The notes under the pieces: generated by a model | Databases searched by the model: none | Seen by the model: only the letters and a program-made list of their open reading frames with translations | What the model was told of the DNA's origin: nothing | Shown: positions 5,929 through 28,459 of the stretch, piece after piece | Layout of the letters: the number at the start of each line of letters is the position of its first letter | Position numbering within the stretch: the first letter of the stretch is position 1 | Program-made: the position numbers and the translations under genes | Assembly (NCBI RefSeq): GCF_012927265.1 | Contig: NZ_JABBGF010000001.1 | Span: 1,176,502 to 1,240,501 of the forward strand | DNA from: Chryseobacterium cheonjiense | GTDB taxonomy: Bacteria; Bacteroidota; Bacteroidia; Flavobacteriales; Weeksellaceae | DNA length: 64,000 nucleotides | Direction of reading: 5' to 3'

Positions 5929-5930
5929 TT

Positions 5931-8828: not shown

Positions 8829-8829
8829 T

Positions 8830-11535: not shown

Positions 11536-11901
11536 TTGAACACAGAAGAGAGTAAAAGTTCTGAAGTAATCTTTTTCAGAATCAAAAAAGCGAGAAAGGA
11601 GAACTGGAAAAAAATATGCAGGGAAAGGAATATCTCTCTAACCCGTCTGATCGTTGATTCCGTGGAGAACAGAATCATGGATGATGAAAGAAGAAAGGTC
11701 ATTAGATTCATTGAAAAGCAGGACAACATTTTTTCGAAGATTGAGACCAATATCAATCAGGTCGCTAAGATGGTAAACGGTCAAAAGTATATTTCGGAAA
11801 GTCAACTGGAGGTATTTTCCAGGCAACTCAAGGAAATAGAAATACTGAAAGCCAGGCAGAACAGAATATTTGAAAATATCTACGCACTGCTTTCCAAATG
11901 A
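11536..11901 (+). CDS. Relaxosome accessory (MobA/MobC-like) protein
   Basis: 121 residues, small, basic, with a ribbon-helix-helix-like N-terminal half (EVIFFRIKKARKENWKKICRERNISLTRLIVDSV) and a predicted coiled C-terminal half (FIEKQDNIFSKIETNINQVAKMVNGQKYIS). Proteins of this kind bind oriT and assist the relaxase encoded directly downstream, with which it overlaps by 4 nt (ATGA). The only usable start is TTG at 11536, preceded by AAAGG; no ATG or GTG exists between the upstream in-frame stop and the conserved region. Confidence 0.7.
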   Translation: MNTEESKSSEVIFFRIKKARKENWKKICRERNISLTRLIVDSVENRIMDDERRKVIRFIEKQDNIFSKIETNINQVAKMVNGQKYISESQLEVFSRQLKEIEILKARQNRIFENIYALLSK

Positions 11902-13352
11902 TCGTCAAAGTGATGAAACCGGCGGGAACTAATTTTCCCGGAGTAGACTACAATGATAAAAAGATTGATAAAGGTAAAGGAGAACTGATGCTGATGAAGA
12001 ATTTTCCATCATTTATTAATAAAGACAGAGGCAAGCAACAGGTCAGGGATTACCTGAAAGTGATCTCAAAAAGCAACAAGGTGAAAAAGCCACAATTCCA
12101 CGCGGTGATCTCGACTAAATTTCAAGAGCATAGCAAGGAAGAGCTTACAAAGATCAGTGAAGATTTTATGGAAAAATTCGGGTACGGGCAACAGCCTTAC
12201 ATCGCCATTTTTCACGATGATACGGAGAACAATCACATTCATCTTGTTTCAACAAGAGTAAACAAACGGACCGGAAAAAAAATTGATGACAGCTACGAAA
12301 AGCTGAAGGCGCAAAAAGCATTAGCCGAAGTCCTGGAAAAGCGGTACGGCATCAATGAGGAAGAAAGATTAAATCAACTCTTAAATTATAAAATTGGCTC
12401 TTTTCAGCAGCTGAAAACTTTGCTCAACAGAAATGGTTACCAACTTACCGAAAACACAAATGACGGAAAATCCATGACCATTTCAAAAAACGGCATTGTC
12501 CAGCGAAGCATCTCAGCAAATCAGATTGTTTTTAGCAATCAGTACAGCGAGAAACGGATCAGGCAGATCAGAGCCATTTTTTCAAAATACAGGCAGCTCT
12601 ATTCTAACAAAGTATTTAGAGTGGATGACTACAGAAAACAAGAGGCAATGCTGCCCGACGACAAGCAAAAAGATCATTGGAAACCGGTAATTGAATTTGA
12701 AAGCGAGCTGCAGAAAAAGCTAAGAGATTCTTTCGGAATTGACATCGTGTTTCATCACAAGGATGATCAAATGCCTTTCGGTTACACACTGATCGATCAT
12801 AAGGCAGGGATTATTTGGAAAGGAAGTGATATTATGAAAATGGGTGACTTGTTTAGATTAACATCTGTCATAATGGATAAAAGGCTCTTTGAAAAGTTGA
12901 AAGATTATAATATCCCCAATTCGGAAACCAAAACGGTCTTACTGAAATTTTTAAAAGCAAAATATCCGGAGAAAGAACTGAAGGACTTTATGCTGTTTGA
13001 AAATAAAAAACTGAAAAGCAAAACGACATTCGATACGGTCAGAAGTGATGTCAAAGAATATCTCAAAAACCAAAGTAAAGAGGATGTTATTTTGATAAAA
13101 GCAGAGGATGAGAAATATTACGCTATCCATACACGACTTCACTTCATCAGTGAGCTGCGAACCCTGGTCGGCGAAAAACAATATCAACAGTTTCTGAATC
13201 CTCAATTGATGATTAATAAACAGACTGAAAACAATTCCGGAAACGTGCTGAACCAGGTCGTTAACGAGATGATTTTTGAATGGACAAAAAGTTCAGGAAG
13301 CACAAAAGACCCGGCCGAGAACGAATTGAAAAAGCGAAGAAAAAAAAGATAA
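11898..13352 (+). CDS. Relaxase/mobilisation nuclease (MobB-like)
   Basis: 484 residues. The N-terminal relaxase fold shows FHAVISTKFQEHSKEELTKI, then YIAIFHDDTENNHIHLVSTRVN with the metal-binding H-x-H at His113/His115 and an upstream FHDD motif. This is the MOBP-type signature common to Bacteroidetes elements. The C-terminal ~250 residues are lysine-rich and end ELKKRRKKR. It should nick oriT and pilot the single strand to the coupling protein encoded at 25653. oriT is probably close upstream of the mobilisation genes, but no nick site could be identified. Confidence 0.9.
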   Translation: MIVKVMKPAGTNFPGVDYNDKKIDKGKGELMLMKNFPSFINKDRGKQQVRDYLKVISKSNKVKKPQFHAVISTKFQEHSKEELTKISEDFMEKFGYGQQPYIAIFHDDTENNHIHLVSTRVNKRTGKKIDDSYEKLKAQKALAEVLEKRYGINEEERLNQLLNYKIGSFQQLKTLLNRNGYQLTENTNDGKSMTISKNGIVQRSISANQIVFSNQYSEKRIRQIRAIFSKYRQLYSNKVFRVDDYRKQEAMLPDDKQKDHWKPVIEFESELQKKLRDSFGIDIVFHHKDDQMPFGYTLIDHKAGIIWKGSDIMKMGDLFRLTSVIMDKRLFEKLKDYNIPNSETKTVLLKFLKAKYPEKELKDFMLFENKKLKSKTTFDTVRSDVKEYLKNQSKEDVILIKAEDEKYYAIHTRLHFISELRTLVGEKQYQQFLNPQLMINKQTENNSGNVLNQVVNEMIFEWTKSSGSTKDPAENELKKRRKKR

Positions 13353-13365
13353 AACGAACAACAAA

Positions 13366-14016
13366 ATGATTATCACATTCGGAACTCAAAAAGGAGGAAC
13401 AGGCAAAACCACATTAGCCATTGCTTTTGCCAATTACATTTCAGGAATATCCGAAAGAAAGGTTAATGTGTTCGATTTTGATTTTCAGAAATCTTTCTAC
13501 TACAAATGGAAGGAAGATGAACAGTCGGAATTGCCGAAACTGTATGATGTGGAGATTATCGATGATGAAAACAAGCAGCCCTTCTCAGATTTTGAACACC
13601 TGATCGAAATGAAGGAAAGTGAGGACATCAACATTTTTGATCTTGCGGGAACGCTGGATGCCCGGTACAGTGATCTGCTGATCTACAGTGATTTTATCCT
13701 GATCCCTTTTGAATATTCCAATGTCTCCGCAAAATCAACCCTGGTCTTTATCAACTTCCTGGGACTATTGGAAAGCCAGGCAGAGCGAATATTCATCCGT
13801 TCCAAATATGACAAAGGTTATAAGTATCAGAACCAGGAAGGTATGGATGCGGAAATCAGCAAGTATGGCGTGATCCTGAAAAGCCCAGTATTCAAAAGAA
13901 ACTGCCTTCAGACTATTGATACTCGAAAGCTATCCTATGAACAGAAATATGCGGTCAAAAATGCATTTGCAGAACTGGTCGATTACATCAACTACGCGCT
14001 TGAAATTAATATATAA
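13366..14016 (+). CDS. ParA-family ATPase (TraA-like)
   Basis: 216 residues with the deviant Walker A motif KGGTGKTT at 9-16 and NVFDFDFQKS as the A-prime region. INIFDLAGTLDARYSDLLIYSDFILIPFEYS is the Walker B/switch region. ParA/Soj-like proteins are standard at the start of Bacteroidetes conjugation loci (TraA). No ParB partner is seen. It begins 14 nt after the relaxase stop, so it is cotranscribed. Confidence 0.88.
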   Translation: MIITFGTQKGGTGKTTLAIAFANYISGISERKVNVFDFDFQKSFYYKWKEDEQSELPKLYDVEIIDDENKQPFSDFEHLIEMKESEDINIFDLAGTLDARYSDLLIYSDFILIPFEYSNVSAKSTLVFINFLGLLESQAERIFIRSKYDKGYKYQNQEGMDAEISKYGVILKSPVFKRNCLQTIDTRKLSYEQKYAVKNAFAELVDYINYALEINI

Positions 14017-14736: not shown

Positions 14737-15057
14737 ATGAAACACAAATGCAAACATTACTCAACGCCGAAAAAATTGTTCACCGTCGCAATGCTTCTTA
14801 TGGCTGTCACTCCAATGCTGGCACAAGGCGGCGCCACAGCTATCTCCAATGCCGCCGATGATATCAAAGATTATTGGGATCCGATCAAGCTGATCTTAAA
14901 AGCCGTTGGCGGATTGGTTGGTTTTATCGGTGGTCTGCGGGTCTATAACAAGTGGACCAACGGCGACCAGGATGTTAATAAAGAGATCCTGGGTTATGGC
15001 GGTGCGATGATCTTCCTTATTGTTGTCCCTGAATTTGTAACCTCCTTTTTTGCCTAA
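14737..15057 (+). CDS. traE: TraE-like conjugal transfer protein (DUF4134)
   Basis: 106 residues with an N-terminal signal sequence (LFTVAMLLMAVTPMLAQG) and two hydrophobic segments (LILKAVGGLVGFIGGLRVYNKW, GGAMIFLIVVPEFVTSFF) joined by NGDQDVNKEILGYGG. This layout is the VirB2/TraE pilin-like type and matches DUF4134. It is followed by TraF after 3 nt. The 115-bp gap before it (14622-14736) holds no clear promoter or terminator. Confidence 0.88.
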   Translation: MKHKCKHYSTPKKLFTVAMLLMAVTPMLAQGGATAISNAADDIKDYWDPIKLILKAVGGLVGFIGGLRVYNKWTNGDQDVNKEILGYGGAMIFLIVVPEFVTSFFA

Positions 15058-15060
15058 GCA

Positions 15061-15375
15061 ATGGGATTCTATCTCTATAAGGGGCTGAAAAAGCCTCTTG
15101 TATTTTTCGGGCTTAAGGGAAAGTATATCATTTATGCGGTGGTCGTTATCGGCGCAGGAGTCATTGCCGCATTGGTCTTATCAAAATTCGGTTTGCTCGG
15201 ATCACTTTTGGGAGTGTCAGCTACAGCCGGCGGAGTTTACCTGATGTTCAGAAGACAAGACAAATACGGACTCTATGACAAGACCAGAAACTCCGACCAG
15301 GTCTTCGTTTTTCCAAAAAGAATGCATCACAAAAAATTACTAAAGAATGGCAACAACAAAGAAACACACCTTTGA
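15061..15375 (+). CDS. traF: TraF-like conjugal transfer protein (DUF4133)
   Basis: 104 residues, VirB3-like: GFYLYKGLKKPLVFFGLKGKYIIYAVVVIGAGVIAALVLSKFG with two close membrane helices and a basic cytoplasmic tail (FRRQDKYGLYDKTRN). DUF4133 members sit between TraE and the TraG ATPase, as here. Its 3' end overlaps the start of traG by 29 nt in another frame, which suggests translational coupling. Confidence 0.88.
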   Translation: MGFYLYKGLKKPLVFFGLKGKYIIYAVVVIGAGVIAALVLSKFGLLGSLLGVSATAGGVYLMFRRQDKYGLYDKTRNSDQVFVFPKRMHHKKLLKNGNNKETHL

Positions 15376-18300
15376 CATTCCCTTTATCGGTTACGATTAC
15401 GGAAAAGATTTCAACCGGGATTTTGATGTGCTGTTTGGGCAGTACGGCAATCCCATCATCGGGATTAGGATAAAAAACATCGTGGAACAGTATTCTGCTG
15501 ATCCCGATAATTACCTGAATTTCCACACGGTTCTTAACCAGATCGTGTCGATTATCGGAGAGGGAAGGATTGTTCAGAAACTGGACATCTTCACGAAAAA
15601 AAAATATACCGTTGAACCATCCGTCCAATTCCTACAGCAAAAGTATTCCGAACACTTTGAAGGGAGGCTTTTTAAGACTATTGAAACGATTTTGCTCTTC
15701 ACAGATATTGTTGATGACACGCTGAAAAAGAAAATAAAGCACTATCATTTTTCAGATAAGCGCTACAAAGAGTTGCGTGACAAATGTCAGAAGGTATTTA
15801 TGCTTTTGAAGCAGAGTGGCTGTGAACCTGAATTTTTATTTGAGAAAGATTTTGAATATTATATCTCAGGGATTTTGTCGATGCAGTTTTCCGATGTTCC
15901 GGTATTCGACAACATCAAAAGTACCAATGAATATTTGAGAATAGGCAACCGGTTTGTCAAAAATATCGCCTATGTCGATGTAGAAAATATTGACTTGCCT
16001 TCTGAAATAGAACCCTATTCGATACTTGGCGGAAATGGAGCAGCTTCCGAAACAGCCATTGATAATTTTACTTTCATCAATGAGCTGGAAGATTACGAGA
16101 CCATTGTTTACAACCAGATCATTACCATTCCATTGCAGGCACAGCAGCAAAGAGAACTCGACAAAAAGAAGAAAAAGCACGAAGGCGCGGCCAACAATTC
16201 GCCTTCCAATGCCATCATCGCAGAAGAAATTCAAACGCTGCTTCACAACATAGCCATTGATGGGCAGCTGGTCGTCAATGCTCATTTTTCTCTGCTTTTT
16301 TCAGCAAGCACGCCGGAAGCAATGGAAGGGATACAGTCGCAGATTGAAAATAAGCTGTTCACCAAAGGGATCATCGTTTCCAAAAATGCCTATAACCAAT
16401 TGGAATTGTTCCGGGCAGCACTTCCGGGCAATGCCACCGAACTCAGGGAATACGATCTTTTTATGACGACAAGCGAAGCGGCCTTGTGTTTTTTTTTTAA
16501 AGAAAGTTACCCCGTGAACGAAGAATCCAACTTTTACCTCCGCTTTACCGACAGGCAGGGCGTGCCTTTAAAAGTGGATCCGGCAGACCAGCCGATGAAA
16601 ACCGGAAGAATCAATAACCGGAACAAGTTTGTGCTGGGCCCCAGCGGCTCCGGCAAGTCATTCCTGATGAATAATATCATCGAGCAATACCTGACCTACA
16701 ATTATGATGTAGTTATTGTCGATACCGGAGATTCTTATTCAGGAATCTGCCAGTACAAAGGCGGGAGGTACATCCAATATACTGAAGAAAAACCGATCAC
16801 AATGAATCCTTTTTTGATGGACAAAAAAGAGTTTAATATTGAGAAAATTGAATTTCTGACCAACCTGATCTTCCTGATCTGGCAGGGTCCCGATGCAACG
16901 GTGTCCTCTGCTCAGAAATCGATCCTTGATAATGTGCTGATGTCCTATTATCACCAGTATTTCAATTCGGGAACCGATTGGTATGAGCATAAAACGTCAG
17001 AAGAGCTCATTCTTTATTTGAACAAATACAACATTCACGAAGAGGATATTCACAGTGACCGGTCATCGACCGAAAGTTCTGAAAAAAGCTATTACGATAT
17101 TCTGGGACTTCCGTTTGATGCTTCTTCAGATCAGATCAAAGAGACAGGAAGAAAATTGTTGAAATCTTACCATCCGGATAAAAACCTGAATAACCCGGAT
17201 TATGACAGCAAGAAGTTCTATAAGGTCTTCGAAGCGTATGAAGCACTGAGCGATGACTACCGAAGAAAGATCTATAATGAAACACAGCTGATCATTGTAA
17301 AATCAAAAGATATTATTGAACGTCCGGACTCACCGTCAGAATGGGATCAAAGTTTTCGAAAGGCTCTTATTAAAAAGATCAAAGAACTCGAAGAAGAACT
17401 GGAAGCCAAAGAGCTTTCGTTCAACGGCTTCTATGATTACTGCGACAAATTCCTGCTGCTGTATCTCAATAACAAGAAGCACAGTATTACGGAAAGAGAA
17501 TTCAACCTCCGGACATTTTTGTTTGTGCTGAGGGATTTTTACAAAGGCGGAAGATACGGAACGACTTTGAACGAATCTGCCGACAATACACTCTTCGATG
17601 AATCATTCATTGTCTTCGAGATCGATAATGTGAAGGATAATCCGAAACTGTTTCCGATTGTCACGCTGATCATTATGGACACCTTTATTCAGAAGATGAG
17701 GCTTAGAAAAGACCGTCGTAAAGCTCTGATCATAGAAGAAGCCTGGAAAGCGATTGCCAGTAAGCTTATGGGCGGATATATTCTGTACCTCTATAAAACC
17801 GTTCGGAAATTCTGGGGAGAGGCCGTCGTGGTAACACAGGAACTGGATGATATTATCGGGAATGCCGTGGTTAAGGATTCTATCATCAACAATTCCGACA
17901 CCTTTATCCTGTTAGACCAGACCAAGTTCAAGGACAACTTTGAACGCATAGCATCGCTGTTATCGCTGAATAAAGTGGAGCAAAACAAGATCTTCACGAT
18001 CAACAATCTCAATAACAAATCCGGAAGAAGCCGTTTCAAGGAATTTTATCTGAAGCGGGGTTCCAAAGGCGAGGTCTACGGCAATGAGGTTTCCCTTGAG
18101 CAATACCTGACCTATACCACCGAAAAGCCTGAGAAATCAGCAGTTGAATATTATGTACGGAAATATGGTAATTACGATGAAGCTCTGCTAAGGATCGTAA
18201 CGGACTTAAAAGCTTTTGGCGAGAGTCTTGAAAACCTGGTGTCCCTTGTCAATTTATACCACAATCCATTAGATCAAAATATCGTTTCCTACTACCAAAT

Positions 18301-18421
18301 GATGAAGAAAAACCATCCCGGGAAAAATATCTTCAAGATCATCGCTCAAGAATTGGAAGAACGAAATATCAGTTTCTCTGAACTAATGCATAAAAATGAA
18401 TATCAGTATGAAAAAGCTTAG
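15347..18421 (+). CDS. traG: TraG/VirB4-type conjugation ATPase with an embedded J-domain
   Basis: 1024 residues, longer than the roughly 830 of CTnDOT TraG. Walker A is GPSGSGKS at 431-438 and the Walker B region is LIIEEAW with Glu797/Glu798. The TraG signature FRGxxx-like start and C-terminal EVSLEQYLTYTTEKPE are present. Between them, residues ~581-645 form a complete DnaJ J-domain: YYDILGLPFDASSDQIKE, then SYHPDKN with HPD at 609-611, then FEAYEALSDDYRRKIYNE. A Glu/Lys-rich helix (KKIKELEEELEAKE) follows before the ATPase resumes at TFLFVLRDFYKGG. The protein powers substrate transfer and pilus assembly at the inner membrane; the J-domain suggests recruitment of DnaK. The frame is intact and codon use is even across the insert. 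Confidence 0.92.
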   Translation: MATTKKHTFDIPFIGYDYGKDFNRDFDVLFGQYGNPIIGIRIKNIVEQYSADPDNYLNFHTVLNQIVSIIGEGRIVQKLDIFTKKKYTVEPSVQFLQQKYSEHFEGRLFKTIETILLFTDIVDDTLKKKIKHYHFSDKRYKELRDKCQKVFMLLKQSGCEPEFLFEKDFEYYISGILSMQFSDVPVFDNIKSTNEYLRIGNRFVKNIAYVDVENIDLPSEIEPYSILGGNGAASETAIDNFTFINELEDYETIVYNQIITIPLQAQQQRELDKKKKKHEGAANNSPSNAIIAEEIQTLLHNIAIDGQLVVNAHFSLLFSASTPEAMEGIQSQIENKLFTKGIIVSKNAYNQLELFRAALPGNATELREYDLFMTTSEAALCFFFKESYPVNEESNFYLRFTDRQGVPLKVDPADQPMKTGRINNRNKFVLGPSGSGKSFLMNNIIEQYLTYNYDVVIVDTGDSYSGICQYKGGRYIQYTEEKPITMNPFLMDKKEFNIEKIEFLTNLIFLIWQGPDATVSSAQKSILDNVLMSYYHQYFNSGTDWYEHKTSEELILYLNKYNIHEEDIHSDRSSTESSEKSYYDILGLPFDASSDQIKETGRKLLKSYHPDKNLNNPDYDSKKFYKVFEAYEALSDDYRRKIYNETQLIIVKSKDIIERPDSPSEWDQSFRKALIKKIKELEEELEAKELSFNGFYDYCDKFLLLYLNNKKHSITEREFNLRTFLFVLRDFYKGGRYGTTLNESADNTLFDESFIVFEIDNVKDNPKLFPIVTLIIMDTFIQKMRLRKDRRKALIIEEAWKAIASKLMGGYILYLYKTVRKFWGEAVVVTQELDDIIGNAVVKDSIINNSDTFILLDQTKFKDNFERIASLLSLNKVEQNKIFTINNLNNKSGRSRFKEFYLKRGSKGEVYGNEVSLEQYLTYTTEKPEKSAVEYYVRKYGNYDEALLRIVTDLKAFGESLENLVSLVNLYHNPLDQNIVSYYQMMKKNHPGKNIFKIIAQELEERNISFSELMHKNEYQYEKA

Positions 18422-19061
18422 CCTGCTATTTTTAGGATTCTGTGGATGGCTATCCGCTCAGAATACCTACATTGACCCCACGGTAACCGCTGCGATGATT
18501 CTCTATTCGGAAAATCTGAAAGCCAAACAAAACGAGGTTATTGAAGAAACTTCCAGACTGAAGGATGCACAGACCTGGGTCGGAACACAGATGGTCGCCG
18601 CCAATGGTATTCAGAATAAAATACTGAAGGGATTAAAAGAAGTTTCCGGAACCTTACAAAATGGGATTCAGGTACAGGAAATTTATTCTGAGCTGAACAA
18701 ATGCTATACCTATTCCTCGCAGGTCGTCCAGTTAGCCTCACAGCATCCGCAGTATGCCATTTTCGGCGTAAAGGCTTCACAGAAAACCTACGAGCAAAGC
18801 CTGAAGATCGTCACCGATGTTTCGGATATTCTAGCATCGGGAGAGCTGAATCTGGCGACGGCAGGTGACCGCTACAAGATCCTGCACAACATTTCAGGAA
18901 ATGTAAAAAGCCTCAAACTGTGGTTGCTCGCCATCAAGCTGAGACTGGAAAAAGCAAACCGTCTGGGATTCTGGAATTCCATTAACCCCTTTGCCGGCTA
19001 CATCAATACCGATAAGGCCATTGTGGATGACATTATGAACCGTTACAAAAGAAATTTTTAA
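18408..19061 (+). CDS. TraI-like transfer protein, tandem paralogue 1
   Basis: About 217 residues; the ATG at 18408 starts MKKLSLLFLGFCGWLSAQ, a signal peptide, inside the end of traG. The mature protein is helical (ENLKAKQNEVIEETSRLKDAQTWVG...) and ends INTDKAIVDDIMNRYKRNF. It is the first of four successive genes ending with the same kind of motif. It sits where CTnDOT has traI (DUF4141, VirB5/TrbJ-like), so a periplasmic pilus-tip or channel component is likely. Confidence 0.72.
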   Translation: MKKLSLLFLGFCGWLSAQNTYIDPTVTAAMILYSENLKAKQNEVIEETSRLKDAQTWVGTQMVAANGIQNKILKGLKEVSGTLQNGIQVQEIYSELNKCYTYSSQVVQLASQHPQYAIFGVKASQKTYEQSLKIVTDVSDILASGELNLATAGDRYKILHNISGNVKSLKLWLLAIKLRLEKANRLGFWNSINPFAGYINTDKAIVDDIMNRYKRNF

Positions 19062-19071
19062 AACGCTTGTG

Positions 19072-19755
19072 ATGAAGAAGATTTTTGCGACTCTGTTCAT
19101 CCTGATTGGATATATTGTGATCACCTCTTCTAGCGGAGGTTCCACGCCTGCCTGGCAAAAAGAGAATGTCTCCTTTCCGATGATGAATATTGAGATCAAC
19201 GCCACGATGAAAGAACACGACCGGCAGAAAGAAATGCGGCAGAAACAAACTCTCAATGCCACAGTGGAAACCGCCAACCAGAATCAATGGAAGAACTTTA
19301 AAGACAAAGTCACCAAAATTCAGGACAGACTAAGAATCGTGTCACATGCGATACAAGCGATTCCGGCGGGAGTAGCGATCAACAGGGAAATTAATAAAAT
19401 AACGGAAAACCAGACCGCCATTATCAATGAGATCAATACGGCGCCTTATTCCATAATTGCAGTATTGCCTTCACAGATGCAGTTTGTAGATGACCTGCAA
19501 ATGACCTTGCGGTTACTCACAGGAATTATTCTGTCCTACGGAGCCATCAACCAGATGGAACAATCCGAACGGAAGATCTTACTGGATTATGCGGTGGGTG
19601 AAGTCAAAACACTCAGCAGAAATTCCACCTATATGCTCTTAAAAATAATGGACATCAAAGTCAAGGTTTTACGGAACAAAAGAGCCTTCCAGTATTATGT
19701 CAACCGAGACAAACAGGTAGTGGAAAGTATTATAAATAACATTAAATCCTTTTAA
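19072..19755 (+). CDS. Transfer-operon exported protein, tandem paralogue 2
   Basis: About 227 residues with an N-terminal membrane/signal segment (KKIFATLFILIGYIVITSSS) and long helices rich in Q/K/E (MKEHDRQKEMRQKQTLNATVETANQNQWKNFKDKVTKIQDRL). It ends VNRDKQVVESIINNIKSF, the divergent version of the shared C-terminal motif. A central LLTGIILSYGA stretch is moderately hydrophobic. It lies 10 nt after the previous stop. Function is unproven; a VirB5-like helical periplasmic protein is the best guess. Confidence 0.65.
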   Translation: MKKIFATLFILIGYIVITSSSGGSTPAWQKENVSFPMMNIEINATMKEHDRQKEMRQKQTLNATVETANQNQWKNFKDKVTKIQDRLRIVSHAIQAIPAGVAINREINKITENQTAIINEINTAPYSIIAVLPSQMQFVDDLQMTLRLLTGIILSYGAINQMEQSERKILLDYAVGEVKTLSRNSTYMLLKIMDIKVKVLRNKRAFQYYVNRDKQVVESIINNIKSF

Positions 19756-19757
19756 CA

Positions 19758-20423
19758 ATGAAGAAAATAATAGTTACAGGAACATTTCTCTTTTCTGTCC
19801 TTACCGTTAACAGCCAGCAAATTGTCATCAATGATAAGCTGCTGACCCAGATCACCGTGAATCACGGGGTACGTCTGGCGAGCGAACAGGCTTTCCTGAA
19901 TTCCTACAAAAAGCAGAAAGAACTGTACGACGATATCAACAATAAAACAATGCAGGTGATCGCCATCCAGGAATACATCTGCCAGCAGCTGAAGAATGTC
20001 AACTCGGCACTGACCCAGAGTAAAAAACTGGTCTATCTATACCAATATTTGGGAAGGATCGTCACGAATTCCAACAAAATGATGGATCTCTCTGCACAAC
20101 ACCCTGAATACGCCGCCCTAGTCTCAAAATATTATGTCGAGATCGGGAAGCAGATCCTAAAGCTGCAGCAGGAAGTGATGCAGGAGATTCTGAATGAAGA
20201 TAAGGATTTCCTGATGGATGCCAGCGACCGGGAAATGCTGATCGAAAAAGTGTTTACTCGTGTAAGGAATATTCACGGGAACATCCTGTACATTATTCTG
20301 AGACTCGAAAATGCCAGAAAGATACCATACCTGTATCAGGTTCCGGTACTTCGGAACTATATAAACATCGACAGAGCGATTGTCGGAGACATTATCACAA
20401 AATACAAATACATTTTCAATTAA
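19758..20423 (+). CDS. Transfer-operon exported protein, tandem paralogue 3
   Basis: 221 residues starting with signal peptide MKKIIVTGTFLFSVLTVNSQ, then helical (ASEQAFLNSYKKQKELYDDINNKTMQVIAIQEYICQQLKNVNSAL). It shares with paralogue 1 the STQHPEYA-like segment (LSAQHPEYAALVSKYYVE here, LASQHPQYAIFGVKAS there) and the ending INIDRAIVGDIITKYKYIFN. It begins 2 nt after the previous stop. The similarity to paralogue 1 extends over most of its length by eye. Confidence 0.68.
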   Translation: MKKIIVTGTFLFSVLTVNSQQIVINDKLLTQITVNHGVRLASEQAFLNSYKKQKELYDDINNKTMQVIAIQEYICQQLKNVNSALTQSKKLVYLYQYLGRIVTNSNKMMDLSAQHPEYAALVSKYYVEIGKQILKLQQEVMQEILNEDKDFLMDASDREMLIEKVFTRVRNIHGNILYIILRLENARKIPYLYQVPVLRNYINIDRAIVGDIITKYKYIFN

Positions 20424-20428
20424 GAATT

Positions 20429-21259
20429 ATGGAAACATTATTTAAAAAAGGAAAATTTTTGGTCTTTCTATTTCTTGCGTTTGCCGTATCATCACAAGTA
20501 AGCGTGAAAAGGTTAAACGATCCTTCGATTGTTGCCCAGCACAAACGGATGACCTTCGAGAGCTGGGGAGACTGGCGGCCTTATCCAAAATATTTCCTGG
20601 GCATCCAGACCAATTTTGCGTATGCAACGGTTTGGGGCATTTGGGCTCCCAAAATCAACCGGGACTATAAGGATGGGGACGATATCCGCCCGCTGAAACC
20701 TACCGGAGAACAGAATCTGAGATTTGCCCAGCTTAAATTCCAGGAAGAAGAGGCAAAGAAAATTAAAGCCGCTTCCGACACGATTTACAAAAGAAGCGTC
20801 CAGGACCTTGCCCACTGGACTTCGGCTACAGTGGATGCTGATCCGTTATGGCTCTTGTATTACAAACGAATGCTCAAACCGATAACGGAATTTCCGGATA
20901 CTCCACAGAATTTTATCGAATGGCGGTTGAAAGATGAACCCACTTATGAGGCTCTTAACACCACCGGAACATTAAAACGATGGCAGGATGAGCTGGACCT
21001 GATCAAGGAAAAATATTCAATGTCAAGGTCTATGGATATGCCGAGGGGAAAACGTTTTGTGATGTATCACGAGACACTCATCCGGTGGCGGAAATTTGTT
21101 CAGGAACTGAGAAAGTACAATAACCGGACAACGCTTCTTCTGGATTACAAAAACATCCTGAACAGCCATTTATCAACCGCTTTGCCCACACAATGGACGC
21201 CCGCTTCAGACCGGGCAATTGTTCAAAACGTGATGCAGCAATATAAACACAAATATTAG
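20429..21259 (+). CDS. Transfer-operon exported protein, tandem paralogue 4
   Basis: 276 residues with signal peptide KFLVFLFLAFAVSSQ, then a Trp/Tyr-rich section not shared with the others (WGDWRPYPKYFLGIQTNFAYATVWGIWAPKI). Helices and the ending WTPASDRAIVQNVMQQYKHKY follow. Only the C-terminal motif links it clearly to the three genes before it. The next gene (traJ) begins 2 nt after the stop. No named family was recognised. Confidence 0.65.
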   Translation: METLFKKGKFLVFLFLAFAVSSQVSVKRLNDPSIVAQHKRMTFESWGDWRPYPKYFLGIQTNFAYATVWGIWAPKINRDYKDGDDIRPLKPTGEQNLRFAQLKFQEEEAKKIKAASDTIYKRSVQDLAHWTSATVDADPLWLLYYKRMLKPITEFPDTPQNFIEWRLKDEPTYEALNTTGTLKRWQDELDLIKEKYSMSRSMDMPRGKRFVMYHETLIRWRKFVQELRKYNNRTTLLLDYKNILNSHLSTALPTQWTPASDRAIVQNVMQQYKHKY

Positions 21260-21261
21260 AG

Positions 21262-22512
21262 ATGAATAGAAAACGAACATTAATATTTTGTCTCCTGACG
21301 ATCTTTTTACCGGTCATAAGCTTTGCCCAGACCGATGGCGATTACAGCAATCTTCTTCAATTCCTCAAAGGTGATGGTGCGTTTGAAAAGTGGTTTATGG
21401 AGGTATTTACCAAGCTGGACACCAGCATTCAGGACAGCGCCCAAGGTTCCGCACTGGTCGGAAGGGCAATCGGTGGATTAGGCGCATTGATGTATCTAGG
21501 GTATATGGGCTGGCAGATGGCCGCCGGAGACCGTGAATGGGAAATTGTCCCGATGCTTAAACCTATTCTTATCGGGTTTACCCTGGTGTATTGGACGGGA
21601 TTTGTCAATCTGATCCAGGCACCGTTTGAAGCCATCGCCGAACCGGGCATTGCTATTTTCAGCGACATCGAATCCGAGGTTAATGACCTAAGGGTCCAGC
21701 GGTTCAAAAAACAACAGCAATTGCTTGATGCGGTCATCAAGCTCAGCGCCGAGGAGGATGCCAAGCAGGAGGTCATAAACAATACCTCTAAAGATGCGGA
21801 TGACTCGTGGTTTGACATCAGTGACGGGATTGATAAGCTTTTACAGCCCATCAAAGAATGGCAGATCAGGATGGAATTTCAGATGCAGAAACTGATTGCC
21901 GAAGTAATAGAATTTGTATGTCTGTCTATCCTGAGAATCTGCGTTTATTTGATTTTCTTTATCCACAAGATCTGGGCTTACATTCTCATTATTCTGGGTC
22001 CGATTGCAGTGGGAATGGCACTGGTACCGGGATTTGAAAACTCTCTATACAGCTGGGTATCCAAATTCATCAATGTTAACCTTTACACTTTTGTGGCCTA
22101 CACCATCATCAACATCGGCCAGCAACTTATCGCCTCAGGCTACACCATGGAAATCGAACGGTACGATACCCTGTTGACCAACGGTACAGTAACCAACCTG
22201 GATGCATTGATGGTCTATGTCAGTAATTCCGGAATGATCTATAATGGACTTTTTACCTGTGTGGCTTATATCGTGACTGGTATCGGGGTGCTGATGACGC
22301 CTACTATTGCTGATACGATTGTAACCGCCGGAGGAGCAGGTGCAATGACCAAAATGAAAAATGCCGCGGGAAAAGTTGCGAGTAGCACTAAAACAGCAGT
22401 ACTGGCAGTCAAAACAGGAGGTGCAGCAGCGGCGGCATCGGCTGTTAAAGCAGCAGCGGCAGGTACTGCTTCAGGAAGAGTTCAGGCAGCGATGAATAAT
22501 AAAAAGAAATAA
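21262..22512 (+). CDS. traJ: TraJ-like conjugal transfer membrane protein (VirB6/TrbL type)
   Basis: 416 residues. A signal peptide (TLIFCLLTIFLPVISFAQ) is followed by several membrane helices: ALVGRAIGGLGALMYLGYMGWQMA, LKPILIGFTLVYWTGFVNLI, ILRICVYLIFFIHKIWAYILIILGPIAVGMALVPG and GLFTCVAYIVTGIGVLMTP. The C-terminus is Ala/Lys-rich (AAAAASAVKAAAAGTASG). This arrangement matches TraJ of Bacteroides conjugative transposons, the polytopic inner-membrane core of the channel. Confidence 0.87.
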   Translation: MNRKRTLIFCLLTIFLPVISFAQTDGDYSNLLQFLKGDGAFEKWFMEVFTKLDTSIQDSAQGSALVGRAIGGLGALMYLGYMGWQMAAGDREWEIVPMLKPILIGFTLVYWTGFVNLIQAPFEAIAEPGIAIFSDIESEVNDLRVQRFKKQQQLLDAVIKLSAEEDAKQEVINNTSKDADDSWFDISDGIDKLLQPIKEWQIRMEFQMQKLIAEVIEFVCLSILRICVYLIFFIHKIWAYILIILGPIAVGMALVPGFENSLYSWVSKFINVNLYTFVAYTIINIGQQLIASGYTMEIERYDTLLTNGTVTNLDALMVYVSNSGMIYNGLFTCVAYIVTGIGVLMTPTIADTIVTAGGAGAMTKMKNAAGKVASSTKTAVLAVKTGGAAAAASAVKAAAAGTASGRVQAAMNNKKK

Positions 22513-22515
22513 GAC

Positions 22516-23130
22516 ATGCTTATCAAAAATATAGAACAGAGAATTAAGATTAACAAGATTGTTTCAGTTTCAACTGTTGCTTTTGCGGTTATCATTGTGC
22601 TGGCAGGATTCTTTTTTGCCTACAAAATGATCCAGGATTCCCGAAGATCAATTTACATTCTGGACAATGGTGTTCCTGTACTCGCCAAACAAACTGATGT
22701 CCTTTTGAACAGACCGGTAGAATACAAAGCGCAGATCGAATTGTTCCATCGCCTGTTTTTTACACTGGCTCCCGATGATCAGTATATCAAGGAAAATATC
22801 CAAAAGTCCTTGTATCTGATTGATGACAGCGGAAAGAAGGAATATACCAACCTTCGGGAAAAAGGATTTTACAACCAGATTGTCGCTTCCAGCTCAATGG
22901 TCAGCATCCAGGCCGATTCGATTGCGCTCAATATGGAGCAGAAGAAATTTCAGTTCTTCGGAAAGCAGATGATCACCAGGAAATCATCGGTCATTACCCG
23001 AAAGCTCATCACCGAGGGTTTCTTTGAGGATATAATCCGGAGCCCTAATAATCCTCACGGGGTTATGCTTAGGAACTGGCGCATCATCGATAATGAGGAG
23101 CTCTCCAATCAAACTAAAAACTCCTATTAA
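22516..23130 (+). CDS. traK: TraK-like conjugal transfer protein (VirB8 type)
   Basis: 204 residues with one N-terminal membrane anchor (IVSVSTVAFAVIIVLAGFFFAYKMIQ) and a periplasmic domain with the TraK signature VEYKAQIELFHRLFFTLAPDD and SLYLIDDSGKKEYTNLREKGFYNQIVAS, later GFFEDIIRSPNNPHGVMLRNW. The family is well conserved in Bacteroidetes elements and acts as a bitopic scaffold of the channel. It follows traJ by 3 nt. Confidence 0.9.
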   Translation: MLIKNIEQRIKINKIVSVSTVAFAVIIVLAGFFFAYKMIQDSRRSIYILDNGVPVLAKQTDVLLNRPVEYKAQIELFHRLFFTLAPDDQYIKENIQKSLYLIDDSGKKEYTNLREKGFYNQIVASSSMVSIQADSIALNMEQKKFQFFGKQMITRKSSVITRKLITEGFFEDIIRSPNNPHGVMLRNWRIIDNEELSNQTKNSY

Positions 23131-23518: not shown

Positions 23519-24721
23519 ATGAAGAAAATTAATTTCAGACAGAAAAAATATGTGCTGCCGCTTTTGGCTCTGCCGTTCCTGCTTCTTTTTGGGTACGTCG
23601 GTGCGGAGTTCTCGAAAGAGGATACGCCAAAAGACAAGCCCAAGGAGCTATCCCTTTCATTGGGTGAAACGAAGGATTCGATTATGAATAAAAATGATGC
23701 CTACGATGCATTCTTCAGGAAAGATGATAATCGTACGATGCTGGAAGGACTGGATCAAGAACAGGACAGCCTGCTGAACTATGATGACCAGCTGTCGTTA
23801 GCACAAAAAAGAAAAATTGATTCTCTTAAAACGGTATCCTCAAGGCAAAATCGATACCAGCCCAAAGAAAAGCTTTCATCCTATTATGATTCTAAACAGC
23901 GTAGTGAGGATAAAGATTATAAAAGGTCAGCGGAAATGATCCGCATGCTGAATGACAAATCATACGGAAGAGCGGAACCTAATATCTTAGCTGAAAGCCC
24001 TAAGGTGACACAAAGCGTTCAGCCTGATCCGGTCAAATACCTGAAGCAGCAGATGCTCGTGATGGATTCCCTGGAAAAAGCGAGAGACCCGGAATACCAA
24101 AGCAAATTGGCAGCTGAACAGCAGCTGAAAGCCAATAAGGAAAAGATGGACGAGTTTCTTAACTCCACCTTCAATGTCAGCAAGTCAGGAATCAACGCTG
24201 TGTTCAATGCATTCTATAAAGAACAGGAGAACAGCTTTATCAAGGCAGTGATAGACGAAAACAACAAAGGCTTTCTCGGCAGTCGGATCAGGTTCCGTTT
24301 ACTGGAGGACATTTTTGTCAGCAACCGAAAGATCAGCAAGGGTTCTATTCTCTATGGGCAGATTTCCGGATTTTCCATGCAAAGGGTTGACCTTAAGATC
24401 GTATCGGTATTTACCCAGGGAGAGATCTTTCCCGTTAACCTATCTATTTACGATGTGGACGGGATGAAGGGTTTATATGTTCCGCAAAGCGTGTTCCGGG
24501 ATATGATCCGCGAAATGGGAAGCAATTCGGTTCAGGGAACGCAGATGGATATGGGCGGACAGGGCTTCTTTACCAGCATCGGTTCCAAGTTGTTTACTTC
24601 CACATCAAAATCCATCGCCAATCTCATCAAAACCAATAAAACCAAGCTGAAGTACAACTCCTATGTATTCCTGATCGACGAAAAACAACTCAAAGAATCA
24701 CAGAACAAACAAAATCAATAA
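23519..24721 (+). CDS. traM: TraM-like conjugal transfer protein (VirB10 type)
   Basis: 400 residues: one N-terminal membrane helix (KKYVLPLLALPFLLLFGYVGAEF) and a long charged linker. A C-terminal domain starts around FIKAVIDENNKGFLGSRIRFRLLEDIFVSNRKISKGSILYGQISGFSMQRV, the conserved TraM/VirB10 beta-domain, and includes YDVDGMKGLYVPQSVFRDM. It bridges inner and outer membrane in the transfer channel. The gene order TraK-TraL-TraM-TraN is conserved. Confidence 0.9.
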   Translation: MKKINFRQKKYVLPLLALPFLLLFGYVGAEFSKEDTPKDKPKELSLSLGETKDSIMNKNDAYDAFFRKDDNRTMLEGLDQEQDSLLNYDDQLSLAQKRKIDSLKTVSSRQNRYQPKEKLSSYYDSKQRSEDKDYKRSAEMIRMLNDKSYGRAEPNILAESPKVTQSVQPDPVKYLKQQMLVMDSLEKARDPEYQSKLAAEQQLKANKEKMDEFLNSTFNVSKSGINAVFNAFYKEQENSFIKAVIDENNKGFLGSRIRFRLLEDIFVSNRKISKGSILYGQISGFSMQRVDLKIVSVFTQGEIFPVNLSIYDVDGMKGLYVPQSVFRDMIREMGSNSVQGTQMDMGGQGFFTSIGSKLFTSTSKSIANLIKTNKTKLKYNSYVFLIDEKQLKESQNKQNQ

Positions 24722-24722
24722 A

Positions 24723-25592
24723 ATGATGAAAACCTTATTATACAGCCTGCTGCTGTTCACCGCGCAATTGTTAAGAGCACAAACTGCTATCTCTGAGCAG
24801 GTTATTTCTAATCTGCCGGAACTTGAAATCACCGAAGGGATCAACCTTCATATGATCTCACCGGAACCGATTCAGTATGTTGATTTGTCTACCGCTCAAC
24901 TGACCGGTGATCTACCGGTACCAAATATTGCGAGAATAAAAATGACCGATAATCTTATCTCTGATAAGGATAAGAAAAAACAATTCACTCCTTTTTTTAG
25001 CGGCGATACAGTGGGCATTATTACCGTTGTCGGTCAGTCGTTCATCGCGCAGTATAAAGCTGTTTATAGAAATGCGGATAATCTAAATACGGTTACCAAT
25101 ATCCACATCCAGCCCGAAGCCATGCAGCCCATCGAGTTCGATAAAATGACTTTCTCGAACCGTGAACTCAGGAAGTTTGCCCTAGATATTATTCAGAAGA
25201 AGGCCGATAAAAAGCCGGTACGAACTGAAAACAGCCTAAATCTCGGTATGCAGCTCAATAATGTATATGTTATGGGAGATTATATTTTCCTGGATATGAC
25301 CTTTAAAAACATTTCCAACCTAAGTTATGATCTGGAGGCCCTTAAGTTTTCTATTGAAGATAAAAAGATCCACAAGACCACCAATAATCAGAGCATTGAA
25401 ATGACACCGGTGTTTCAGCTGAACGCGCAAAAGCATTTCAGGAAGAACTTCAGGAATATTTACGTGTTCAAAAAGTTCACCTATCCCAATTCCAAGGTGA
25501 TGATGATCCGTCTTATCGAGGAACAGCTCTCCGGAAGGACCATCAAAATGAAAGTAAACTACTCGGATATTCTTAAAGCCGACACCTTCTAA
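24723..25592 (+). CDS. traN: TraN-like conjugal transfer protein (VirB9 type)
   Basis: 289 residues starting at 24723 or the ATG three bases later, with signal peptide KTLLYSLLLFTAQLLRAQ. DUF4138-type features are visible: ITEGINLHMISPEPIQYVDLS, IARIKMTD, GIITVVGQSFIAQYKAVY, and a C-terminal domain with YVMGDYIFLDMTFKNISNLSYDLEALKFSIEDKK. The family forms the outer part of the channel. It starts 1 nt after traM. TraO, TraP and TraQ, which follow in CTnDOT, are absent here. Confidence 0.88.
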   Translation: MMKTLLYSLLLFTAQLLRAQTAISEQVISNLPELEITEGINLHMISPEPIQYVDLSTAQLTGDLPVPNIARIKMTDNLISDKDKKKQFTPFFSGDTVGIITVVGQSFIAQYKAVYRNADNLNTVTNIHIQPEAMQPIEFDKMTFSNRELRKFALDIIQKKADKKPVRTENSLNLGMQLNNVYVMGDYIFLDMTFKNISNLSYDLEALKFSIEDKKIHKTTNNQSIEMTPVFQLNAQKHFRKNFRNIYVFKKFTYPNSKVMMIRLIEEQLSGRTIKMKVNYSDILKADTF

Positions 25593-25652: not shown

Positions 25653-27647
25653 ATGCAAGAACAACAACATCAGATCAAAATCTACGGATTCCTACAAAAG
25701 GCAGTCTATGCTGTGGTAGCATTAGACTGTGCTTCTCTGTTTTACCTGAATGCCGACGTCCCTGTTATTTCCAATCTTCTGAAGAACTTCTCAAAAATGA
25801 GTTTTATCTATCCTCCGATCAATGCCAAGTTTGCCACATTGGTTTTAATAGGATTAGTGGCAGTAGGAACCAAAGCTAAGAAAAAGAAAGATCTCAATAT
25901 TGCTACCGGAATCATCATTCCAATGGTTTTGGGACTGGCAATGATGTTCAGCGCATTGATCTGGCAGGAAAAAGCAGGAAACACCGAACTTCCCAAAATA
26001 TTCCCGGGAATGAATCTTTATCAGGTCGTCTACGCAGTTCTCTCCTTTCTGGGAGCAGTTATCCTTCAGATGGGTGCCGACAGCATTTCCAAGATGATGC
26101 AGCAGAAAATGGGGAAAGACCGATGGAATGTGGAAGAAGAATCATTTGACCAGAACAAAGAGCTGGTTAATACCGATACAAGTATTAATATCCCTTACCT
26201 GTTCCGGTATAATGGTAAAATCAATAAAGGCTGGATCAACATCAATCCGTTCCGTGGAACAACAGTGATCGGAACACCTGGAAGCGGAAAGTCCTTCGGA
26301 GTGATCAACCCTGCTATCCGGCAGATGATCGCCAAAGGTTTCTGCCTGTGCATCTATGACTTCAAGTTTCCGGACCTGGCGCAGATCGCTTATTATCATT
26401 ATTTAATCAAGAAAAGCAAAGATCCGGGATACAATTACCGGTTTCACGTCATCAATCTGAACGAGGTCGAAAGATCAAAAAGGGTCAATCCTTTTCATAA
26501 AAAGTATATTGAGACGTTGGCCGAAGCACAGGAAATGGCAGAATCGACGGTGTCATCATTGCAAAAAGGCGGAAGCAGTTCGGGTGGAGGCTCCGATGCG
26601 TTCTTTACCCAATCTGCCATCAACTTCCTGTCATCCTGCATCTACTTTTTTGCCAGGCTGGAAAATGGGAAGTACTCGGATCTTCCCCATATTCTTGCCT
26701 TTATGAACCGAAGCTACCAGGAAATTTTTGATACGCTGTTCACCAATGAAGAGATCGGTTCCCTACTGTCTCCCTTCAAAACAGCCTATGATAACAAAGC
26801 TTTCGATCAACTGGAAGGACAGATCGGAACACTGAAAATATTCCTGTCGCGATTAGCGACCAAAGAAAGTTTCTGGGTGTTTTCAGGCGATGAAGTTGAA
26901 CTGAAAATTACAGACCGCAAGAACCCGTCTATTCTGATCTTAGCTTCAGACCCAGGAACACAGGATATTAATTCTGCTTTGTATTCCTCGGTGTTAAACC
27001 GAACCTTGCGACTGATCAATTCCAAGTATAACCTACCGGGAGGCATTATTGCCGATGAGTTCCCAACCATTTATATCCATAAGATCGATAATGTGGTGGC
27101 AACCGCTCGAAGCAACAGGGTGGCTGTCTTGCTCGGTCTTCAGGAAATCCCGCAGCTAAGGCAATTCTACAAAAAGGAAGTGGCGGATACCATTTCTGCC
27201 ATTGTCGGAAATATCCTTTCCGGTTCGGCGAGGGATAAAAATACGCTGGACTGGCTGGAAAAGCTGTTTGGAAAAATCAAGCAGAAATCCTACTCCCAAT
27301 CCATATCGCAGCAGGGAACGACCACCGGTATCAATGAGAAAATGGATCATATGATTCCCGCCGGAAAGATTGCAGCCCTGAAAACCGGCGAAATGGTCGG
27401 GATGATTGCTCAAGGCGAAGAAAACGATACGAACAAATACAAGACATCTGCCATTCACGGAAAAATAAATCTGGATACAAAAGCCATTAAAAAGGAAGAA
27501 CGAAACTACGTTCCGATGCCTGTCTACTATTCATTTACAGATAAAACGGGAAAAGACCGGAAAGAGGAAATCCTGATGACCAATTTCCGGAAGATCAACA
27601 AGGAAGTGGAACTCATTGTCAATGAATTTATAAAATCAGCCTCATGA
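25653..27647 (+). CDS. Type IV coupling protein (VirD4/TraG-type, MobC)
   Basis: 664 residues. Three to four N-terminal membrane helices occupy the first ~160 residues. Walker A is GTPGSGKS at 207-214 and Walker B is GGIIADEFPTIYI with Asp468-Glu469. The segment FKFPDLAQIAYYHY and the late AIVGNILSGSARDKNTLDWLEKLFG are typical of Bacteroidetes coupling ATPases. It links the relaxase-DNA complex to the Tra channel. A 60-nt gap with AT-rich leader separates it from traN; it overlaps the next gene by 4 nt. Confidence 0.9.
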   Translation: MQEQQHQIKIYGFLQKAVYAVVALDCASLFYLNADVPVISNLLKNFSKMSFIYPPINAKFATLVLIGLVAVGTKAKKKKDLNIATGIIIPMVLGLAMMFSALIWQEKAGNTELPKIFPGMNLYQVVYAVLSFLGAVILQMGADSISKMMQQKMGKDRWNVEEESFDQNKELVNTDTSINIPYLFRYNGKINKGWININPFRGTTVIGTPGSGKSFGVINPAIRQMIAKGFCLCIYDFKFPDLAQIAYYHYLIKKSKDPGYNYRFHVINLNEVERSKRVNPFHKKYIETLAEAQEMAESTVSSLQKGGSSSGGGSDAFFTQSAINFLSSCIYFFARLENGKYSDLPHILAFMNRSYQEIFDTLFTNEEIGSLLSPFKTAYDNKAFDQLEGQIGTLKIFLSRLATKESFWVFSGDEVELKITDRKNPSILILASDPGTQDINSALYSSVLNRTLRLINSKYNLPGGIIADEFPTIYIHKIDNVVATARSNRVAVLLGLQEIPQLRQFYKKEVADTISAIVGNILSGSARDKNTLDWLEKLFGKIKQKSYSQSISQQGTTTGINEKMDHMIPAGKIAALKTGEMVGMIAQGEENDTNKYKTSAIHGKINLDTKAIKKEERNYVPMPVYYSFTDKTGKDRKEEILMTNFRKINKEVELIVNEFIKSAS

Positions 27648-28459
27648 AAATACTTACCGCGTACTGTATAATCGGGATATTTTTTTCTTTTAACTGCTCT
27701 TTATATGGGCAATTCAATACGATTACGCCCACATCGCCACAGAAAGCAGAGAATCCTCAGGTAGCGAACAAGACAGAAGAAACTAAGAATCTGAAAAAGC
27801 AAACGGGCAAGAAATTCTGGAAGAATCTATTGAATGGAACACGTAAAGTTGACCTGAAAAAAGAATTGGATTCCCTGAAAACTATGATTAAAGAAAATTC
27901 CATATCCAACAGCAAAAAATGGGATATGCAAAAATTGAAGGATTCATTAATCTTGGAACTTCAAGGTCAATTTATTAACAAGGCACCGCATGATTTCAGA
28001 AAGAGATCGGCAGAAGATGAATATCCAAAGATTACGATGCCGCTGGACAGATCAATTTCCGTTACATCACCCTACGGCACAAGAGTGCATCCAATTTCCG
28101 GAACATTCAGAATGCACAATGGCATCGACCTGAAAGCTTACTATGAAAATGTATATGCTGTGATGGATGGAATCGTCACCGAAACCGGCTGGGATCCGAT
28201 GGGTGGAGGCCACTTTATCAAAGTAAAACATTATAACCGCTTTGAAACAGCCTACCTGCATCTCTCAGAAATCTATTATAAAGCCGGTGAGTTCGTTAAA
28301 GCGGGATTCGTAATCGCAAAAAGCGGAAATTCCGGAAATTCAACAGGAGCGCACCTGCACTTCGCCGTCCGGGAAAACGGTAAATACATCAATCCTGTCC
28401 GTTTTCTCAATGAGCTTCTCGAAGCGAATGAGTGGCTTGCTGCATCTTACCACAACTAA
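27644..28459 (+). CDS. Exported M23 metallopeptidase
   Basis: 271 residues; N-terminal signal (YCIIGIFFSFNCSLYGQ), then a Lys-rich linker and a C-terminal LytM/M23 domain. The zinc motifs are RMHNGIDLKA (H-x3-D) and GAHLHFAV (HxH). M23 enzymes cut peptidoglycan cross-links and in conjugation loci open the wall for the channel. It overlaps the coupling-protein stop by 4 nt (ATGA), so it belongs to the transfer operon. Confidence 0.9.
   Translation: MKILTAYCIIGIFFSFNCSLYGQFNTITPTSPQKAENPQVANKTEETKNLKKQTGKKFWKNLLNGTRKVDLKKELDSLKTMIKENSISNSKKWDMQKLKDSLILELQGQFINKAPHDFRKRSAEDEYPKITMPLDRSISVTSPYGTRVHPISGTFRMHNGIDLKAYYENVYAVMDGIVTETGWDPMGGGHFIKVKHYNRFETAYLHLSEIYYKAGEFVKAGFVIAKSGNSGNSTGAHLHFAVRENGKYINPVRFLNELLEANEWLAASYHN

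Follow-up and report, generated by a model that had tools for sequence, protein, structure and literature searches.

The TraG gene and its internal J-domain

The 64,000-nucleotide stretch of Chryseobacterium cheonjiense DNA analysed here (contig NZ_JABBGF010000001.1, positions 1,176,502 to 1,240,501 of the forward strand; hereafter the window) carries a conjugative transfer region in which the TraG gene encodes an ATPase with a DnaJ-type J-domain lodged between its Walker motifs. A preliminary description of this DNA had placed the gene at 15347-18421 of the plus strand in one uninterrupted frame, and this is borne out: the frame comprises 1024 codons with zero internal stops. The features of the gene are the following, in window coordinates.

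15347..18421, plus strand: TraG/VirB4-type conjugation ATPase with internal J-domain (P0001), 1024 amino acids (aa); matches to TIGR03783, PF19044 and PF00226
16637..16660, plus strand: Walker A, GPSGSGKS, residues 431-438; read from the sequence, invariant in a 16-sequence alignment
16967..17086, plus strand: variable linker upstream of the J-domain, residues 541-580; from alignments and a model confidence below 50 at residues 574-578
17087..17278, plus strand: J-domain, residues 581-644; from PF00226, J-domains in the PDB and helices I-IV in the model
17171..17179, plus strand: His-Pro-Asp (HPD) motif, residues 609-611; present in 81/81 sequences
17279..17410, plus strand: variable linker and long helix downstream of the J-domain, residues 645-688; from alignments and the AlphaFold model
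17735..17740, plus strand: Walker B glutamates, residues 797-798; read from the sequence, invariant in the 16-sequence alignment

The protein matches the TraG profiles TIGR03783 (E 1.2e-140, 470 bits, curated cut-off 261.55) and PF19044 (E 1.8e-131, 439 bits, cut-off 25.8), and a profile comparison matches it to 7O41, the VirB4/TrwK of R388, with E 4.5e-10. The best structural matches of the ATPase part of the AlphaFold model are VirB4 proteins, namely 4ag6 (Z 27.6, 348 residues aligned, root mean square deviation 3.4) and 8rtd (Z 25.8). By score, Walker motifs, predicted fold and the surrounding genes of a type IV secretion system (T4SS), the protein is a TraG/VirB4-type conjugation ATPase with a predicted ATPase role in transfer. 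Judged from its sequence, it is not a member of the narrow CTnDOT-like TraG group, which is about 830 aa long and insert-free; it has 1024 aa and an insert, and falls outside that group in both trees described below.

The J-domain is matched over the full length of PF00226 (1-63/63) at residues 581-644 with E 1.9e-18 and 66.7 bits (cut-off 27.8), in agreement with the full domain proposed at about residues 581-645. Solved J-domains of the PDB, human, yeast and bacterial ones among them, match the same residues, the best being DNAJB9 (E 1.2e-13). The sequence also upholds the reported positions of the HPD motif and of the J-domain between Walker A and Walker B, both motifs lying in the single frame and flanking the domain on either side; the HPD is placed between helices II and III, as J-domain proteins require.

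An AlphaFold model of residues 385-960, built on 31 aligned rows including J-less rows from IMG/VR, reached a mean predicted local distance difference test (pLDDT) of 80.8 and a predicted template modelling score of 0.71; an earlier run on 41 rows, which were probably too alike, gave a mean pLDDT of only 59.5 for the ATPase core. The J helices of the model span residues 582-586, 594-607, 621-635 and 637-654, and the predicted J fold sits in an all-helical stretch flanked by the beta strands of the ATPase. The J blocks have a pLDDT of about 78-87, which falls below 50 near both ends of the domain (residues 574-578 and 652-660); these segments suggest that the J-domain is a tethered unit on flexible linkers. 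The structure prediction proposed in the preliminary description has therefore given a folded J-domain between low-confidence linkers, from which we only infer that the domain is exposed to solvent. When the whole model was compared by VIA-align, no J-domain chain appeared among the 50 matches listed; as this list was filled by ATPase chains, it is no evidence against the domain.

Chance or a frame artefact is ruled out by the open frame, the strong PF00226 match and the conserved relatives. The window ATPase thus contains what is, on the sequence evidence, a genuine and complete J-domain, whose stimulation of DnaK is a prediction.

Insertion site and J-less relatives

In alignments of J-bearing and J-less TraGs, the J-domain and its linkers (about residues 541-688) are set between two conserved blocks that lie only a few residues apart in TraGs of Pedobacter, Pontibacter and the CTnDOT-like group. 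The nearest J-less relatives, Sphingobacteriaceae TraGs of about 800-950 aa, align on both flanks of the J-domain, which from these alignments is a true insertion into TraG. Counted on a profile alignment, the insertion site corresponds to about position 559/560 of TrwK. The J segment as part of the ordinary TraG fold is ruled out, since 0/55 J-less rows of the tree have a J match at E 0.1; hence neither of the outcomes named beforehand as telling against the domain, a missing PF00226 match or a segment ordinary in most homologues, occurred. None of nine IMG/VR loci, some of them incomplete, has a J match at E 1. The preliminary description had taken the CTnDOT TraG, with about 830 residues and no J-domain, as its comparison; the length and the lack of an insert hold for TraGs with high TIGR03783 scores, and a better comparison is offered by the closer J-less class, whose members occur in Sphingobacteriaceae and also on some plasmids of Pontibacter and Bacteroides.

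The site is occupied in other ways as well. TraGs of Mucilaginibacter and Bacteroides plasmids carry different inserts there, with neither HPD nor Pfam J match. Such inserts were observed in L084 and L086 (Mucilaginibacter), L088 and L089 (Phocaeicola, Bacteroides), L098 and L138-L141, those of L138-L141 being deduced from length and a profile gap only.

Away from the J site, group II introns split a J-less TraG at Walker B, between the EEAW and KAI codons, in two genomes of the family taken as Sphingobacteriaceae (L189, G1023:C66:144000-151000; L190, G959:C1:1453500-1460500). Intron ends are recognised by Rfam in both, and reverse transcriptase domains are confirmed in L190.

Conservation and selection

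A scan of genome contigs found 113 relatives, of which 80, with 68-91% identity, were kept as loci L001-L080; as the search was designed to find close relatives, these loci give little information on distant forms. The gene is intact and of full length in 77/80 loci, with the HPD in 77/77, and the split or truncated rows L027, L069 and L077 retain the motif in their J-bearing pieces, so that with the window it is found in 81/81. Nine further J-bearing genes fetched from other searches all have it, although at least one of them, L153, apparently duplicates a gene already counted among the 80. Among 78 intact rows the His codon is CAT in 67 and CAC in 11, the Pro codon CCC in 25, CCG in 24, CCT in 22 and CCA in 7, and the Asp codon GAT in 57 and GAC in 21; a motif that is constant while all the codons for these residues are in use is kept by selection on the protein and not by recency. 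Invariance extends to 10/68 J positions (HPD, Y583, L586, A630, Y631, L634, R640 and Y643), and helix II is basic, with Lys or Arg at position 598 in 78/78 rows, at 602 in 78/78 and at 603 in 77/78.

Synonymous sites are near saturation, which makes dN/dS rough; the ratio of nonsynonymous to synonymous differences per site (pN/pS) was used for this reason and is rough as well. Its median over 250 pairs is 0.14 for the J-domain against 0.21 and 0.16 for the two linkers, so that the J-domain is more constrained than either; the P-loop blocks have 0.04 and 0.05, and the C-terminus has 0.23.

Residues 600-608 of helix II occur in L001-L080 as two types of block, an AGRKLLKFY-like one (52 Gly rows) and an AFRKLAIEY-like one (25 Phe rows), together with one Ala row. 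The block types require 6 changes on the tree of the core against 21 when shuffled, a sequence pattern that may hint at recombinational exchange of J segments.

Distribution and origin

Genomes were searched with a J-TraG profile, and in each of them up to 2 candidates (class-wide and order-wide searches), 4 (family of G758) or 5 (Weeksellaceae) were scored; the counts are therefore lower bounds, extra copies having possibly been missed, and the HPD was read only in fetched genes, not in every profile match. In the family of the window, called Weeksellaceae here and apparently including Riemerella, as L153 and L079 share the same core, at least 46/148 genomes match the profile (E <= 1e-90). 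At least 44 of these 46 have a match spanning the whole profile, in at least 55 genes with frames of 1018-1070 codons; one of the 55 (G1125) has a stop inside the match, and outside the 44 stand G398, with a split gene only, and G267, whose gene is HPD-less. In the family of G758, taken as Sphingobacteriaceae, at least 49/201 genomes match, none of them across the J region: apart from fragments, the matches stop at about profile position 535-590 and resume at about 650-700. One TraG of this family (G1083:C2) and the TraG of a Mucilaginibacter robiniae plasmid have identical cores.

Among the candidates scored per genome, a class-wide search of 395 genomes gave a spanning match only in the genome of the window (G000), and in an order-wide search of 296 genomes every spanning match was in Weeksellaceae. 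A PF00226 search of 60 genomes of the order (E 1e-8) found frames of more than 1000 codons only in G000 and G337. Outside Weeksellaceae, a J-bearing TraG occurs in Capnocytophaga (L063, L065, L066 and the truncated L069) and on the Sphingobacterium faecium plasmid pWB8. A search of plasmids with the J segment (tblastn), in which 60 of 326 records were listed and several of these were unannotated, yielded the Chryseobacterium JJR-5R gene as the sole one annotated as TraG and no J-domain in other plasmid T4SS ATPases, which for 60 of 326 is no proof of absence; two plasmid J genes were inspected, one lying beside CbpM and the other with no annotated T4SS gene in the stretch shown. Two scans of IMG/VR for relatives had no match, and from the 20 loci of a further scan one new row (L174) was used.

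Two trees were calculated, from which three J-less TraGs shorter than 700 aa (L099, L148, L149) were excluded. The first comprises 85 TraGs with the insert columns removed, some J-less rows being long-branched, and unites 29 J-bearing rows with the degenerate L110 in a single clade (Shimodaira-Hasegawa-like approximate likelihood ratio test 100), to which none of the 55 J-less rows belongs. The second, of 61 rows after 24 long or redundant ones were dropped, was rooted on the CTnDOT-like TraGs and supports the J-bearing rows plus L110 with 100/100 and the J-bearing rows alone with 91/84, nested among J-less rows. This nesting in insert-free trees means that the J-domain was most simply gained once, and on the sequences at hand it is mostly found in Weeksellaceae; the suspicion that it might be a feature of one clade has been confirmed.

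A host-wide requirement for the J-domain is ruled out, Weeksellaceae genomes such as G554 and G420 carrying both J-bearing and J-less TraGs. Several full-length J-bearing TraG genes are present in G1138 (four) and G1121 (three), and these cells probably harbour several related elements.

The transfer region and the rest of the window

The TraG gene is embedded in what the neighbouring sequences identify as a Bacteroidota T4SS operon, the other genes of which are listed here.

11898..13352, plus strand: relaxase (MobA/VirD2-like); PF03432 E 3.4e-23
13366..14016, plus strand: ParA-like ATPase; PF13614 E 6.5e-11
14737..15057, plus strand: DUF4134 protein (TraE position); PF13572 E 1.3e-25
15061..15375, plus strand: DUF4133 protein (TraF position), overlapping the TraG start; PF13571 E 0.001 (under cut-off), pWB8 match of 41.6% annotated DUF4133
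18396..21259, plus strand: four genes (221, 228, 221 and 276 aa) between TraG and TrbL; no Pfam match
21262..22512, plus strand: TrbL/VirB6-like protein; PF04610 E 6.4e-7
22516..23130, plus strand: TraK (VirB8 position); no Pfam match, 62.5% identity to the annotated traK of pWB8
23519..24721, plus strand: TraM (VirB10 position); PF12508 E 9.5e-36
24723..25592, plus strand: TraN (DUF4138, VirB9 position); PF13595 E 1.2e-44
25653..27647, plus strand: coupling protein (TrwB/TraD-like); PF10412 E 1.3e-14
27644..28459, plus strand: M23 peptidase; PF01551 E 1.8e-27

TraK, TraM and TraN are taken here to be equivalent to VirB8, VirB10 and VirB9, respectively. The gene order matches that of pWB8, whose TraG is 65% identical and J-bearing and is annotated merely as a TraG family ATPase. 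The four genes at 18396..21259 have counterparts, arranged as in the window, on pWB8, around L110 (L191) and on a Mucilaginibacter plasmid that is J-less; by eye, their products have signal-like N-termini and a common C-terminal pattern. Those encoded at 18396 and 19758 may be paralogues, since each also matches the locus of the other in relatives. Beside the transfer region, on the minus strand at 2257-10407, lie three large genes, one with DUF6443, one with a weak RHS repeat match and one whose product bears a type IX secretion sorting tail.

In Pfam searches of 40 of the 77 other open reading frames of at least 90 aa, no further J-domain or HSP70 was found in the window. Searches of the whole genome located a single full DnaK, a further HSP70 match that is short, and four additional J-domain genes, all outside the window. 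With no such partner placed in the window and a DnaK present in the host, the partner of the TraG J-domain would be host DnaK. The short HSP70-like match (L137, G000:C2:410137-410559; E 1.3e-9) lies in a frame of 347 codons.

Proposed function and alternatives

The mechanism that we propose starts from the single insertion of a DnaJ-type J-domain into a VirB4-type ATPase, in a loop of its helical subdomain that lies between the two Walker motifs; there, on flexible tethers, the domain would recruit host DnaK to the ATPase ring. The J-domain would trigger ATP hydrolysis by DnaK, which would then clamp a protein located on the ring or close to it. Most likely to be clients would be subunits that travel through the complex or dock on it, such as pilin, the relaxase or further transfer proteins, or else the oligomeric ATPase. 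One of the works cited in PMC12624023 credits VirB4 with pilin dislocation in its title. In R388, VirB4 is described as a hexamer of dimers when part of the machine and as a trimer of dimers in the free state, and as powering pilus biogenesis (PMC12624023, PMC9259494). Between client and ring as the target of DnaK no firm choice is made here; we infer DnaK binding, its stimulation, the exposure of the J-domain, the client and the effect on transfer alike.

The invariant HPD, the basic helix II and the presence of DnaK in the host all fit recruitment of host DnaK to the ATPase, which is on balance the probable function of the J-domain as deduced from these sequences. A more extended version can be put forward tentatively: a VirB4-type ring would bear J-domains on the helical subdomain, at most one for each subunit, and host DnaK would serve it as an additional motor or as a remodeller, either in channel assembly or on protein substrates, a possible bacterial counterpart of Hsp70-driven import motors that has decayed in at least one lineage.

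Several observations weigh against recruitment of DnaK. One is L110 (L110:314-3304), the TraG of the Weeksellaceae genome G267 and, in the second tree, the sister of all J-bearing TraGs, in which helices I, II and IV are recognisable, the HPD is lost and PF00226 gives E 0.089, under the cut-off. Its surroundings (L191, G267:C15:6500-26499) hold a relaxase, TraE, TraF, TraG, the four small genes, TrbL, TraK, TraM, TraN, the coupling protein and an M23 peptidase with 32-64% identity to those of the window, and lack a match to the ParA-like gene and to a 194-aa gene of the window. The loss of the HPD within a nearly complete transfer set suggests that coupling to DnaK may be dispensable in places; the element may work without DnaK, or may be failing. 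In addition, helix II position 601 is mostly Gly (52/78 rows), while Tyr stands there in the J-domains of the host DnaJ, CbpA-like, J-TM and HscB-like proteins; no gene was seen to be gained along with the J-domain, J-less sister systems having much the same order. Two further points against recruitment are the other inserts of sister TraGs, which mark the site as tolerant of inserts and a hot spot for them, and a J-domain less constrained than the ATPase core by pN/pS. These two points and L110 are also what the main rival explanation draws on, namely that the J fold is a structural insert which merely provides spacing or a contact surface to the ATPase ring and is no longer active on DnaK. 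The HPD is situated in a loop and is not known to contribute to the J fold, and frequent loss of the motif would be expected in a mere spacer; its presence in 81/81 sequences with synonymous codon variation makes the structural explanation rather unlikely.

Two further explanations keep an active J-domain and assign it another task. The recruited DnaK might look after the ATPase itself, protecting, folding or recycling it while it is synthesised or under heat, or transfer might be tied to the level of free DnaK, with no role in translocation. The ATPase is large and multi-domain, and a J-domain on flexible linkers, as the model suggests, would act locally under this explanation as under the recruitment of DnaK for transfer, from which nothing separates it; J-less TraGs manage without the domain, also in the Weeksellaceae genomes that have both kinds (G554, G420), and such quality control or stress sensing is considered improbable. 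The J-domain might instead serve the relaxase-DNA complex, for instance through host DnaK acting on it ahead of its hand-over to the coupling protein, which is very improbable: no relaxase feature specific to J-bearing systems was found, the window relaxase matching those of J-bearing and J-less systems alike. In its favour, evidence in the accessible part of one report suggests that direct DNA binding by VirB4 is possible (PMC12624023), and the available portion of another describes separate DnaJ-domain proteins beside plasmid replication genes and a role of DnaJ and DnaK in phage replication (PMC3756968).

Comparison with known systems

The literature searched, the scope of which left most subscription papers and preprints outside, yielded no description of a J-domain within TraG or VirB4. 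DnaJ, J-domain and DnaK are not mentioned in the available part of PMC12857230, nor DnaK in that of the main text of PMC12624023, where the manner in which T4SSs reorganise VirB4 ATPases is called unclear; in the accessible text of PMC10434189 'J domain' denotes choice-of-anchor J and the one DnaJ is a separate gene, and the portions available of PMC5458099, PMC9259494, PMC5714932 and PMC5625009 describe no J-domain in TraG or VirB4. Domain databases would list this architecture automatically.

The window TraG resembles the CTnDOT-type TraG (TIGR03783, PF19044) in family and in the kind of T4SS gene context. Six aligned TraGs with high TIGR03783 scores, the CTnDOT TraG itself not being among them, have about 830 aa, no insert and 31-33% identity to it, and lie outside the J-bearing clade. 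Closer are the J-less TraGs of Sphingobacteriaceae (such as those of Pedobacter pA27BH1 and Mucilaginibacter plasmids), a sister group with 47-52% identity in four aligned rows (L084, L085, L092, L097); a Mucilaginibacter plasmid has the gene order of the window, including the four genes after TraG, whereas these TraGs have a bare loop or another insert at the J site and no J match. VirB4/TrwK of R388 (7O41) and VirB4 of Thermoanaerobacter (4AG6) share the ATPase fold of the window model (Z 24-28), but their aligned chains are without a J-domain.

Among J-domain proteins, those of the host (DnaJ, CbpA-like and J-TM) have J-domains 35-50% identical to that of the window TraG, located near the protein start and not within an ATPase. 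In Sec63, Pam18/Tim14 and auxilin a J-domain is built into or onto a larger machine for local recruitment of Hsp70; these are eukaryotic or organellar and are not part of a P-loop motor. The mobile elements pGIAK1 and pRE25 bring their own J-domain as the window element does, but according to the available part of the report their J-proteins are separate and small (21 kDa on pGIAK1) and are encoded beside a replication gene, outside the transfer ATPase (PMC3756968).

The ATPase family, the J-domain and stand-alone plasmid DnaJ-domain proteins are thus already known, and the J-domain inside the transfer motor is the apparently new part. A J-domain nested in a P-loop transport ATPase would be an arrangement not met in the literature searched, and it gives a hint that conjugation and protein folding may be linked in a way not yet described. 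A J-domain inside the motor provides a residue-level handle, H609, on any part that Hsp70 may play in conjugation in this group, for which the J-less and HPD-less relatives are natural controls.

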